From the NCBI RefSeq assembly GCF_902459745.1, contig NZ_CABPSJ010000003.1, forward strand, positions 682,001-746,000: DNA of 64,000 nt, written 5' to 3'. Of this stretch, positions 41,478-44,676 are shown one piece after another (positions within the stretch are counted from its first letter, which is position 1; each line of letters starts with the position of its first letter). Below the pieces are notes generated by a model that saw nothing but the letters and a program-made list of their open reading frames with translations, did not search any database and was not told the DNA's origin. The position numbers and the translations under genes were made by a program. The stretch is from Pandoraea communis. GTDB taxonomy: Bacteria > Pseudomonadota > Gammaproteobacteria > Burkholderiales > Burkholderiaceae.

Positions 41478-41954
41478 ATGTTCGTGATGACAACGGTAAC
41501 GCGTGAGATGTGCGACGCCCATGACGCCTCGGACGAGGCAATCTATGCCTTCGTCTATGGCACGCTGCGTGCGGGAGAAATCAACGACATGATGCGAGCG
41601 GCCGCACGTCACGGCATTGCGGCGCCGGTCTACGTCGGCAGCGCGTCACTCGGTGGGCGGCTGTATGATTTCGGACACTATCCGGGCATGGTGTTCGCTG
41701 AAGCGGGCCAACATGTGACCGGTGACATTTACCGGATTCCGGCGGCACTGATCCCCGTGCTCGACGAGATCGAGGCGGTCTATCCGGGCGAGGCGGGGTT
41801 GTTCGTTCGGGAGATGCACGACGTCGCGTGCGACGGCGCGACGTATGCATGCATCGTTTATCCGGTGAGCGAATCGGCGGTCAGTCAGTTGCCGCAGATT
41901 TCAGGAGGCGATTGGGTTGCCTACCGTCGCGAGCGCGATGCCAACGCCGCCTGA
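41478..41954 (+). CDS. Gamma-glutamylcyclotransferase-like (AIG2/GGCT) protein
   Basis: A 158-residue protein of the gamma-glutamylcyclotransferase fold. The substrate loop YGTLRAGE is at 27-34 and the candidate catalytic Glu lies in VLDEIEAVYPGE near 94-105 (E97 or E99). Relatives cleave gamma-glutamyl peptides or amines to 5-oxoproline; the substrate here is unknown. The ATG at 41478 or 41487 are both possible; neither has a strong ribosome site. Confidence 0.75.
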   Translation: MFVMTTVTREMCDAHDASDEAIYAFVYGTLRAGEINDMMRAAARHGIAAPVYVGSASLGGRLYDFGHYPGMVFAEAGQHVTGDIYRIPAALIPVLDEIEAVYPGEAGLFVREMHDVACDGATYACIVYPVSESAVSQLPQISGGDWVAYRRERDANAA

Positions 41955-42001: not shown

Positions 42002-42814
42002 CTATCTGCCGATGGCGAGTTGCCGAAGCATCGACATCGGAAAGCCGAACGGATTCAGCGAGGTCGCTACGTCGTAATGGTCGATGCCGTCTGCGCGTTT
42101 GAGCAGACGCGCGAGACCGACTGTCAACGGCAGCACCAGCCATTGCAGCGCGCACTTGAAGACGAACTCGAGTCCGGCCATTCGGGCCATCGCGTCGATG
42201 TCGAGCACATAGGCGAATGCCACCGCCACAAACACGACCGTGTCGAGCATGGCGGCCAGCGCGTTGCCCATCATGAGGCGCACGCTCGCCAGCCGGCCGT
42301 GCATGGCCACCTTCATGCGAGCGAGGGTGGCGGCGTTCGCAAACTCCCCCACGAGGCACGCGGAGACCGACGCGAGGAACATGTGGGCAATGGCCCCGAA
42401 CCAGTGGCGTTGCACCTCGTCGGTGAAGCCGGTCTGTGCTGCCCAGGCGGCATCGGTCGGCAGGCACGACATCAGCCATAGAAATCCGATCATCACCAGA
42501 TTGGCCGAGAGACCGCTCCAGATCACGATACGGCTGATGCGGTAGCCGTAGACCTCCGTGAGCACCGACGAAAACAGATACGCGAACGGGAAGCTGATCA
42601 GCGCGGCGGAGAACGTCAGCCGGAACGGCTCGTCCCCGATCGACCAGGGCAGCGTGACTTCACACACGCGCGCACCGAGCGCATTCGAGATCAGAAGGAA
42701 GCTCACGAAGGCAATCGCGAGCACGATCACGGCCGGCGTGATGCGTGTGGCCTGGCGCGAAGGGGGAGTGGTACAGGCGGGTGGCGTAGAGGCGGTATCG
42801 GTCATTGCAATCAT
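42002..42814 (-). CDS. yhhQ: Queuosine precursor transporter, YhhQ/VUT family
   Basis: Integral membrane importer of queuosine precursors (preQ0/preQ1), 270 residues with about six spans. Family features are VCEVTLPWSIGDEPFRLTFSAALISFPFAYLFSSVLTEVYGY, a typical YhhQ stretch containing the FPxxYxxSxxLTEVYG core, and LVGEFANAATLARMKVAM. The start at 42814 overlaps the stop of the QueF-like gene (ATGA), so the two are translationally coupled. Tight coupling to a QueF-like protein supports a role in 7-deazaguanine uptake. Confidence 0.87.
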   Translation of the reverse strand: MIAMTDTASTPPACTTPPSRQATRITPAVIVLAIAFVSFLLISNALGARVCEVTLPWSIGDEPFRLTFSAALISFPFAYLFSSVLTEVYGYRISRIVIWSGLSANLVMIGFLWLMSCLPTDAAWAAQTGFTDEVQRHWFGAIAHMFLASVSACLVGEFANAATLARMKVAMHGRLASVRLMMGNALAAMLDTVVFVAVAFAYVLDIDAMARMAGLEFVFKCALQWLVLPLTVGLARLLKRADGIDHYDVATSLNPFGFPMSMLRQLAIGR

Positions 42815-43674
42815 TGGCGAACAGTGCGGACGTTGGAAATGGCAATGGCATGCGTGGCACGTACCGGGTTGATATCGATGCCGTGACGTCGCGTGAATCG
42901 TGCGCCGACGGCCAGTCTTGTCGGGGCGCATTGGGCGAGCACGTCGGCGAAGAGCTGGTCGACGCATTGTTCGATCAGCATGGCGCTATCGCGGTACGAG
43001 AGAATGTAGGCTAATAGCGAATGCCGACAGATCGGCTCTCCCGTGTAGTCGAACCAGACGGTTCCGTAGTCGATGCCATCGGTCAGCGGACATCGCACGC
43101 TCAGCAGGTCGGAGGTCAGGCACTCGTGAAGCGGCGATGCAGGTGAGGTGTCGGCGTGACGGGCATGGCGCAGGAGATCGGCCTGTACGCCGCCGCGCAC
43201 TACGCTGACCGGTGCCAGATCGAGGCTCAGCGCGCCGGGCCCGCATGCAGTGGTCGTGCGCACGGCTTGCCTCACGGGTGTCGTGCGCACGAGGACATAG
43301 GCTTGCAGGCCGCGCGATAACTCGCCCGCCAAGTGCGCTTCGACCGCGTCGGCCGATTCGAAGCATTGGTCGCGCAGTGTGAGGAAGTAGCGTTGCGCGT
43401 CCGACATTTCCAGCGTGTACGGAGAATCGCACGGGATCACGAGTTCCACGACAGCGATCTGCGGCCGCTCATGCATGTCCAGCCACGTGACTTCGTAGTG
43501 ATTCCAGAGGTCGTACCCGCGTGGCGTCACAACCGGCAGCGGACCAGTCGAAGGGGTTCGATGCGGCAAGCGCATGCGGGGCATTGGATGGATGCCAGCA
43601 GACTTGGGGGAGGGCGATCCGTGAGATCTCGCCGTCCGGTTTGACGATGGGCTGGCGGGTGCGCGTGCCGCCAT
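42811..43674 (-). CDS. Divergent QueF-like protein (7-cyano-7-deazaguanine reductase family)
   Basis: A 287-residue bimodular protein of the QueF/T-fold family. Canonical QueF reduces preQ0 to preQ1 with NADPH. Alignment to E. coli QueF from memory: YDLWNHYEVTWLD at 54-66, E89 kept, catalytic C195 in LSVRCPLTD and D202 kept, E235 kept, and the C-terminal ARFTRRHGIDINP kept. But the NADPH signature ESKSxK is replaced by EMSDAQ (89-94), and the active-site His before E235 is Ile234. So nitrile reduction is doubtful. The start at 43674 puts E89 at the E. coli number; ATGs at 43584 and 43575 are alternatives. Coupled to yhhQ. Confidence 0.82.
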   Translation of the reverse strand: MAARAPASPSSNRTARSHGSPSPKSAGIHPMPRMRLPHRTPSTGPLPVVTPRGYDLWNHYEVTWLDMHERPQIAVVELVIPCDSPYTLEMSDAQRYFLTLRDQCFESADAVEAHLAGELSRGLQAYVLVRTTPVRQAVRTTTACGPGALSLDLAPVSVVRGGVQADLLRHARHADTSPASPLHECLTSDLLSVRCPLTDGIDYGTVWFDYTGEPICRHSLLAYILSYRDSAMLIEQCVDQLFADVLAQCAPTRLAVGARFTRRHGIDINPVRATHAIAISNVRTVRQ

Positions 43675-43764
43675 GTCCGAATATGACCAGCGTGCCGGAC
43701 ATCGATGTGGGACGATTCACGCGTTCCCATGTTTCCGGCGGCCGGTCGCGCCGCCTTTTCGACC

Positions 43765-44676
43765 ATGCGCTCATCTGACATTGCCCGTTTACTGACGCTC
43801 GCCGCCATCTGGGGCGCGAGCTTTCTTTTCATGCGCATCATCGTACCCGCACTCGGGCCATTGCCTACGGCCTTCCTGCGCGTCACCCTCGGTGCCGTGG
43901 GGCTGGCGGTGATTCTGCTGGCGTTGCGGGTTCGCTGGGAGTTCAAGGGGCTGCTTGGGGCGTCGATGGTGCTCGGCGTGATCAACTCCGGCATTCCGTT
44001 CGTGATGTACTGCCTGGCCGCCCGTGTGCTGCCTGCCGGTTACTCTGCCATCCTCAACGCGACGACACCTCTCATGGGCGTCATCATCGGCGCCCTGTTT
44101 TTCCATGATCGCCTGACGGGGGCCAAGGCGCTGGGCGTGTTGCTCGGTCTGGTCGGGGTGGCCGTGCTGACGCGCACCGGCCCGGTCACGATGTCCGGGC
44201 CGGTGGTCATGGGGGCGCTGGCGTGTCTCGTCGCGACGTCCTGCTACGGTTTGGCGGGCTATCTGACCAAGCGCTGGATCACCGATCGAGGTGGCCTCGA
44301 CGCCAAGCTCGTGGCGTTTGGCAGCCAACTGGGCGCCGCCATCGTGTTGCTGCCGTTCTTCGGCTACGTGTCGGCGACGTCTGGCATTCCCGGCCCGGCC
44401 ACGGGCGGTGTCTGGGCTGCAATGGCGGCGCTCGGCTTCCTGTGCAGTGCAGTGGCCTATATGTTGTTCTTCCGCCTGATTGCGGATCTTGGCCCGCTGC
44501 GCTCGCTGACCGTGACTTTCCTGATTCCGCCGTTCGGCGTGCTGTGGGGCGCCTTGTTCCTGAATGAGGCGGTCACGATGGCGCATTTTTTCGGCGGCTG
44601 TTTCATCGCGCTCGCGGTGTGGCTCGTGTGCAAGCCGCCGAAGGCCGTGCCGTCCACCCGTCGCGTGGCGTCATGA
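43765..44676 (+). CDS. EamA/DMT-family transporter
   Basis: Drug/metabolite transporter of 303 residues with ten spans in two EamA repeats. The first opens LLTLAAIWGASFLFMRIIVPALGPLPTAFLRV near 9-40, the second near 145-285; PPFGVLWGALFLNEAV is the usual last-loop motif. Substrate unknown. Start ATG 43765 chosen because the transporter fold begins just after it; ATGs at 43729 and earlier would add a non-conserved tail. It diverges from the QueF-like gene, 90 bases apart. Confidence 0.85.
   Translation: MRSSDIARLLTLAAIWGASFLFMRIIVPALGPLPTAFLRVTLGAVGLAVILLALRVRWEFKGLLGASMVLGVINSGIPFVMYCLAARVLPAGYSAILNATTPLMGVIIGALFFHDRLTGAKALGVLLGLVGVAVLTRTGPVTMSGPVVMGALACLVATSCYGLAGYLTKRWITDRGGLDAKLVAFGSQLGAAIVLLPFFGYVSATSGIPGPATGGVWAAMAALGFLCSAVAYMLFFRLIADLGPLRSLTVTFLIPPFGVLWGALFLNEAVTMAHFFGGCFIALAVWLVCKPPKAVPSTRRVAS

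Follow-up and report, generated by a model that had tools for sequence, protein, structure and literature searches.

A QueF paralogue without the NADPH signature, kept beside a COG1738 transporter gene in Pandoraea

The window, a stretch of 64,000 nucleotides from Pandoraea communis, carries a gene, here called queF2, whose product is a second, bimodular homologue of the nitrile reductase QueF; it keeps the residues associated with capture of the nitrile, has another motif in place of the NADPH signature, and is a faster-evolving protein under purifying selection. Judged from these residues, QueF2 may well be a preQ0-binding, thioimide-forming derivative of QueF that no longer reduces with NADPH, a reading in which we place about as much belief as doubt. 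The gene is followed by one for a transporter of the COG1738 family, and the two form a pair at a fixed site of the genus (Table 1).

Table 1. Features of the queF2 locus and codons of selected residues, in window coordinates
Feature	Position	Strand	Remarks
GGACT (gamma-glutamyl cyclotransferase-like) gene	41478..41954	+	left-hand flank of the fixed locus
COG1738/Vut_1 transporter gene (yhhQ-like)	42002..42814	-	ATG overlaps the queF2 stop by ATGA
queF2 (P0001)	42811..43674	-	bimodular QueF homologue, T-fold protein, without NADPH signature; 287 aa; start codon uncertain
I234-E235 codons	42970..42975	-	equivalent to Vc H233-E234; Ile in 12/15, His in 3/15, Glu in 15/15
D202 codon	43069..43071	-	equivalent to Vc D201; 15/15 orthologues
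C195 codon	43090..43092	-	thioimide cysteine position (Vc C194); 15/15 orthologues
E89-Y96 codons (EMSDAQRY)	43387..43410	-	in place of canonical ESKSxKLY; E and Y retained
EamA transporter gene	43705..44676	+	divergent; right-hand flank of the fixed locus

Residues kept and lost in queF2

The protein encoded in the window (P0001) contains both modules of a bimodular QueF, scoring 57 bits against the Pfam family QueF_N (cut-off 25.6) and 51.9 bits against QueF (cut-off 27.3); against the NCBIfam equivalog model TIGR03138 it reaches 185.3 bits, under the cut-off of 293.45, where the other QueF of the genome reaches 385. In an alignment to the QueF of Vibrio cholerae (Vc), its residues E89, C195, D202, I234, E235 and C237 stand opposite E94, C194, D201, H233, E234 and C236, with MSDAQR opposite SKSFKL; the C-terminus reads RFTRRHGIDINP. 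The AlphaFold2 model of P0001 (mean pLDDT 86.3, pTM 0.83) matches V. cholerae QueF over its full length (best E 1.3e-26, TM 0.77/0.84, about 270 columns). Titles of PDB entries include the V. cholerae QueF variants H233A and R262L.

The N-terminal start of QueF2 is uncertain, because the ATG at 43674, which is the one used by the ORF call, lies inside a block whose conservation extends to genomes that have no queF2. This block, CGCCATGTCCGA(A/T)TATGACCAGCG, occupies about 43669-43692 of the window, upstream of eamA, and shows few changes among core-clade genomes with or without queF2; it is probably a control site of eamA, and its candidacy as a control site of queF2 was rejected for the same reason, its retention where queF2 is absent.

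Of 32 Pandoraea genomes, 15 have a full-length queF2, and the 14 copies besides that of the window are 67-83% identical to P0001. The NADPH signature is missing from all 15 and present in the canonical QueFs of Pandoraea (32/32). The replacement is itself conserved: every queF2 reads E-M-[SAT]-[DN]-A-[QHR]-[RH]-Y at this place, over codons that vary synonymously (E89 is GAA in 4 and GAG in 11; Ala93 is GCG in 11, GCC in 2 and GCA in 2), a pattern suggesting that selection maintains the motif. E89, C195, D202, E235 and C237 are likewise kept in all 15. The position of the active-site His is occupied by Ile in 12 of the 15 and by His in three (G019, G015 and G022); in the tree these three branch together as sister to all other queF2, and the most parsimonious order puts the loss of the signature before that of the His. 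In two of 35 signature-bearing QueFs (L075 and L091) this position is Gly; the His is thus not strictly required beside an intact signature. The same two proteins also differ at the conserved His that comes before it (position 230 in P0001).

The earlier note on this DNA had given E89, C195, D202, E235 and the C-terminus as retained, EMSDAQ as standing for the signature and Ile as preceding E235, all of which is correct to the residue; what it said of the thioimide and purine-anchoring residues (C195, D202, E89 and E235), that they are kept, and of the signature, that it is lost, extends to all 15 orthologues. The loss of the active-site His, which it placed beside the loss of the signature, is true of P0001 and of 12 of the 15, and His is still there in the other three, so that of the substitutions whose fixation across the family it had proposed to check, the signature loss is fixed (15/15) and the His loss is not (12/15). 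Nor is the His loss peculiar to this family, since two signature-bearing QueFs of the 35 have Gly there.

The loss in queF2 is wider than the signature alone, since 21 of the 74 columns conserved in the 35 signature-bearing QueFs are found in none of the 15 queF2, 41 being found in all 15 and 12 being mixed. The absent columns include S90, K91, S92, K94, L95, K192, N194, Q200, P201, W203, H230 and G264. Signature columns are over-represented among them, five of seven being absent from all 15 queF2 (hypergeometric P 0.017, to be read as indicative only, as most of the 35 comparison QueFs were chosen by a signature regex); the 35 do include L072, L075 and L091, three proteins that this regex had dropped. 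Around the catalytic Cys and Asp the changes are K192S, N194R, Q200G, P201I/V and W203Y/L; together with those at H230 and G264, they suggest that substrate and chemistry may have shifted by more than one step.

Selection, distribution and locus

Over the 15 genomes, the median Nei-Gojobori dN/dS of queF2 is 0.117 (from the 102 pairs, out of 105, whose dS is finite), at a median dS of 1.36, which is near saturation; restricted to the 19 pairs whose dS is under 0.8, it is 0.109. Canonical queF from the same 15 genomes gives 0.062, and the adjoining transporter gene (yhhQ) 0.103, from 8 of 14 sequences recovered. In paired genomes, the dN of queF2 exceeds that of canonical queF by a factor of 3.7. 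None of the 15 full-length frames contains an internal stop. Since dN/dS is low and the replacement motif is conserved through synonymous changes, queF2 is not decaying. The earlier note had named orthologues showing plain decay as the outcome that would speak against a new function; none of the 15 has an intact signature, and their dN/dS is about 0.11.

queF2 is an accessory copy, since the genome of the window also has an ordinary QueF, QueC and Tgt. The ordinary QueF, which the earlier note had proposed to look for elsewhere in the genome, is encoded on another contig, has the signature ESKSFKLY and is 37% identical to P0001. A canonical QueF, 35-39% identical to P0001, is present in all 32 Pandoraea genomes, each time with ESKS(F/L)KLY and FHEQC, as are QueC and Tgt (32/32 each; for Tgt, one TGT-family match over the cut-off per genome, matched at family level), so that the reduction of preQ0 is already covered without queF2. 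A third PF14489 match in the window's genome is an open frame resembling GTP cyclohydrolase I, another T-fold protein. Second, diverged QueC-like proteins occur beside the main QueC in two genomes (G002:C21:90451-91053 and G027:C1:6568-7167, with 105.3 and 108 bits); these could belong to defence systems.

All ten queF2 loci confirmed in a scan of genome contigs, which may omit records near the window's own, come from Pandoraea. A sample of 398 genomes of the family returned, at E <= 1e-50, the 15 Pandoraea copies and a sole outsider, in G043 (41% identity), and a sample of 399 genomes of the order, in which the genus is represented by the window's genome and G017, returned its own copy only with the 15-sequence profile at E <= 1e-55; at these thresholds, signature-less paralogues of greater divergence would go undetected. 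Plasmid and phage proteins gave 31 and 37 matches, none of them reaching 60% identity (the 20 listed of each are at 27-34%), the three phage matches examined each have the full signature, and a scan of viral contigs found no relative of queF2. Within the range of these searches, a mobile origin or wider spread of queF2 was rejected, plasmids and phages having given only more distant QueF matches.

The pair of queF2 and transporter gene is found at one site, between the GGACT gene and the divergent eamA, and in 12 of the 30 genus loci examined the pair is absent and these two genes are direct neighbours. The queF2 tree agrees with the genome tree, which was built from eamA and canonical queF (G014 and G016 without canonical queF, G017 and G023 omitted) and has several weak nodes. 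On the assumption of a single gain in the ancestor of the main clade, queF2 has been lost about ten times: seven times fully, twice with fragments left behind (G003 and G013, which have fragments only) and once with the transporter kept (G014). By these losses queF2 is dispensable, yet it is conserved where retained.

Around the pair, no preQ1 riboswitch was found, the one listed match, TMV_UPD-PK1, lying under its gathering score, and a scan of 43600-43800 for consensus promoters and terminators found nothing. The Zur-like pattern is GTTATNNNATAAC, and no such site was found near the pair. It was sought because queC and queF appear in the accessible part of a Zur regulon table for Neisseria meningitidis (PMC6103462); in Pseudomonas aeruginosa, an excerpt of PMC7763554 gives queF as a member of the copper-responsive CopRS regulon.

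A role of queF2 in 7-deazaguanine modification of DNA (dpd) was rejected: among the 32 genomes, a second TGT-family match, under the threshold, is confined to G030, a genome with a dpd island and without queF2; PF01702 detects DpdA weakly, so that other DpdA proteins could be missed. The island (L154, G030:C1:4056000-4074000) holds DpdC, two DpdB, DpdA, an extra QueC, an IS66 transposase and DpdE, and a COG1738-type match lies nearby.

Class membership and the adjoining transporter

The defining features of QueF are the catalytic Cys, Asp and Glu together with the motif E(S/L)K(S/A)hK(L/Y)(Y/F/W), which includes Glu94 and holds the NADPH-binding residues; in the available part of the source, sequences without these features were excluded as non-QueF, and the back-door Cys (Vc C236) is given for 100% of bimodular QueF (PMC5372742). 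Set against this description, all 15 queF2 have the catalytic residues (C195, D202 and E235) and the back-door Cys (C237), and none has the motif, of which the S, K, S, K and L are absent throughout and the Glu and Tyr retained; queF2 is thus not QueF by the published definition. With the bimodular QueFs of E. coli and V. cholerae it shares the QueF_N and QueF domains, the Cys, the Asp, both Glu and the back-door Cys, at 31% identity between P0001 and E. coli QueF over 235 positions, whereas it differs from them in the missing NADPH motif (15/15), the change of His to Ile (12/15) and a score under the NCBIfam cut-off.

Archaeal QueF-L is not known to have the NADPH motif, which is absent also from all 15 queF2. 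The QueF-L of Pyrobaculum calidifontis, an archaeosine synthase with the QueF fold (PDB 5jyx/5k0p), matches one domain of the P0001 model, over about 105 columns and with a TMq of 0.31; it is a single T-fold chain of about 109 residues, whereas queF2 is bimodular, and the profile match has an E value of 0.7. Being bimodular, queF2 is not QueF-L, and kinship with the archaeal protein, which the earlier note had brought in for comparison, is not supported; it is bimodular QueF that the model matches over its full length. In mechanism, one and the same thioimide arises at the conserved Cys of QueF and of QueF-L, the Asp serving as acid/base, and the two differ thereafter, hydride following in QueF and ammonia in QueF-L; the latter acts on preQ0-tRNA, and its thioimide with free preQ0 was unreactive to ammonia, only the preQ0-tRNA adduct having reacted (PMC5485725, in the portion available). 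Phage proteins that HHpred had called QueF-L went with preQ1 in DNA, according to an excerpt of PMC6884629, so that sequence-based guesses in this family can fail. The best name for queF2 is signature-less QueF paralogue. Among the matches listed in the CC-licensed literature no title concerns a signature-less bimodular QueF, the accessible parts of PMC11130926 and PMC5041015 mention none, and the same literature yielded no paper on Pandoraea with queuosine or 7-cyano-7-deazaguanine.

The adjoining transporter passes the profiles of the COG1738/YhhQ family, with 98.4 bits against the Pfam family Vut_1 (cut-off 27.2) and 51.3 bits against the queuosine precursor transporter model TIGR00697, 0.35 above its cut-off of 50.95. 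From E. coli YhhQ it differs by its low identity (24% over 135 aa), and its uptake of preQ0/preQ1 is a prediction. With this identity and this margin, the name "queuosine-precursor importer" has the standing of an annotation only; of the coupled importer claimed by the earlier note, the ATGA-overlapping COG1738-family gene is what stands. The gene is found in 16 of the 32 Pandoraea genomes, namely the 15 with queF2 and G014, and it adjoins queF2 in all 15, cut in G024 by the contig end. The ATGA overlap between the queF2 stop and the transporter start, in frame with a long ORF, is seen at 11 of the 15 loci, that of the window included, and at three the transporter starts a few bases further on. 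A Vut_1 search of the genus genomes added to these 16 no more than three weaker matches, in G011, G018 and G030. The pair can be seen breaking up in both directions: in G008 (L102) queF2 stands beside a disrupted transporter frame, and in G014 (L048/L103) the transporter stands without queF2.

Signature-bearing queF genes also occur beside COG1738 genes. The outsider in the Burkholderiaceae genome G043 (L034) encodes ESKSMKLY and FHEQC and is followed by a COG1738-like remnant; it has GYDLWNHYEVSWLD and INPVRST in common with queF2 and, unlike it, the full signature, and its COG1738 gene has an internal stop and lacks an inner part. In G1101 (L086), one of 30 QueF loci, a COG1738-like match starts about 420 bases after queF. 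Vibrio phage 2.275.O (L153, MG592671.1:325000-345000) has a queF gene (ESKSIKLY) directly followed, 46 bases on, by a COG1738 transporter gene, in a cluster that continues with a queuosine biosynthesis protein, GTP cyclohydrolase I and, further on, a QueD-family gene; together these make up a deazaguanine cluster of a phage that includes a gene for uptake. Judged from these arrangements, the pairing of queF2 with its transporter probably predates the loss of the signature.

A non-reductive reading and its alternatives

In the reading that we favour, queF2 would go back to a single early event, an acquisition or a duplication, that gave the ancestor of the main Pandoraea clade a second bimodular QueF along with the COG1738 gene. 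On its stem the NADPH-binding motif would have been lost, and the Glu pair that holds preQ0, the thioimide Cys, the acid/base Asp and the back-door Cys kept. QueF2 would most likely take imported preQ0, or a 7-deazaguanine nitrile closely resembling it, and bind it covalently as a thioimide on its Cys, after which hydride transfer from NADPH would no longer follow. Two continuations can be envisaged: either ammonia or water would attack the thioimide, releasing an amidine or an amide, or QueF2 would keep the adduct and work with the transporter by binding the ligand and passing it on.

The grounds for a non-reductive reading are that QueF2 keeps the thioimide half of the mechanism and is without the NADPH half, as these are described in the accessible parts of PMC5372742 and PMC5485725, and that the QueF fold can form a preQ0 thioimide attacked by ammonia instead of hydride (PMC5485725). 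The stability to ammonia of the QueF-L adduct with free preQ0, as given in the same portion of that source, favours either a changed pocket in QueF2 or the holding role. Counting against this reading are that same stability, the changes at further conserved positions near the catalytic Cys and Asp and at H230 and G264, the roughly ten losses, by which queF2 is dispensable, and the occurrence of queF2 without an intact transporter (G008) and of the transporter without queF2 (G014). A more specific proposal, which we advance tentatively and with more doubt than belief, is that queF2 encodes an uptake-coupled non-reductive enzyme whose 7-deazaguanine nitrile thioimide is released by ammonia or water, in an independent parallel to QueF-L, and which serves a role in tRNA, metabolite or salvage that would be new in Bacteria.

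It is unlikely that the molecule is a different one, that is, that the transporter imports some other purine or purine-like compound and that QueF2 binds or converts it with the old Cys/Asp/Glu pocket. Such a ligand would accord with the 24% identity of the transporter to E. coli YhhQ over 135 aa, with its TIGR00697 score of 51.3 against 50.95, and with the several positions near the Cys and Asp that are altered in 15/15; but both Glu anchors, the Cys, the Asp and the back-door Cys are present in 15/15 as well, and the signature-bearing queF genes beside COG1738 genes in G043 and Vibrio phage 2.275.O point to a deazaguanine theme. Still less probable is that QueF2 has remained a nitrile reductase, which binds NADPH or another reductant through different residues: five positions of the motif said to hold the NADPH-binding residues (PMC5372742, available part) are lost in 15/15, and a signature-bearing QueF is already at hand in 32/32 genomes, even though three queF2 orthologues have the full Cys/Asp/His/Glu set, the His is not universal in signature-bearing QueFs either (Gly in 2/35), and the phage proteins called QueF-L by HHpred turned out, in the excerpt of PMC6884629, to go with preQ1 in DNA.

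QueF2 could also bind a ligand and form no adduct, for example as a regulator or in association with canonical QueF or with the transporter, whose gene queF2 overlaps. The changes around the Cys (N194R and K192S) and the loss of the His in 12/15 would fit such a role, which we nevertheless regard as improbable, the Cys, Asp and Glu being fixed in 15/15 despite a dN about 3.7 times that of canonical queF, which argues for chemistry. That queF2 is a decaying duplicate, as the roughly ten losses on the genus tree and the bare fragments in G003 and G013 might suggest, is rejected as very improbable in view of 15 full-length frames without internal stop, a dN/dS of 0.117 and a conserved replacement motif.

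In 2017, the reaction of QueF was described as the sole known biological nitrile reduction (PMC5372742, in the part available). If the thioimide-forming, non-reducing reading is true, queF2 would offer, in a relative maintained by selection with the nitrile-capture half and without the reductant half, a clean comparison for how the second step of a T-fold enzyme changes, and it would be a possible bacterial counterpart of QueF-L. Its orthologues constitute a natural series, in which the signature is lost in 15/15 and the His in 12/15, and they warn against annotating such proteins as QueF.
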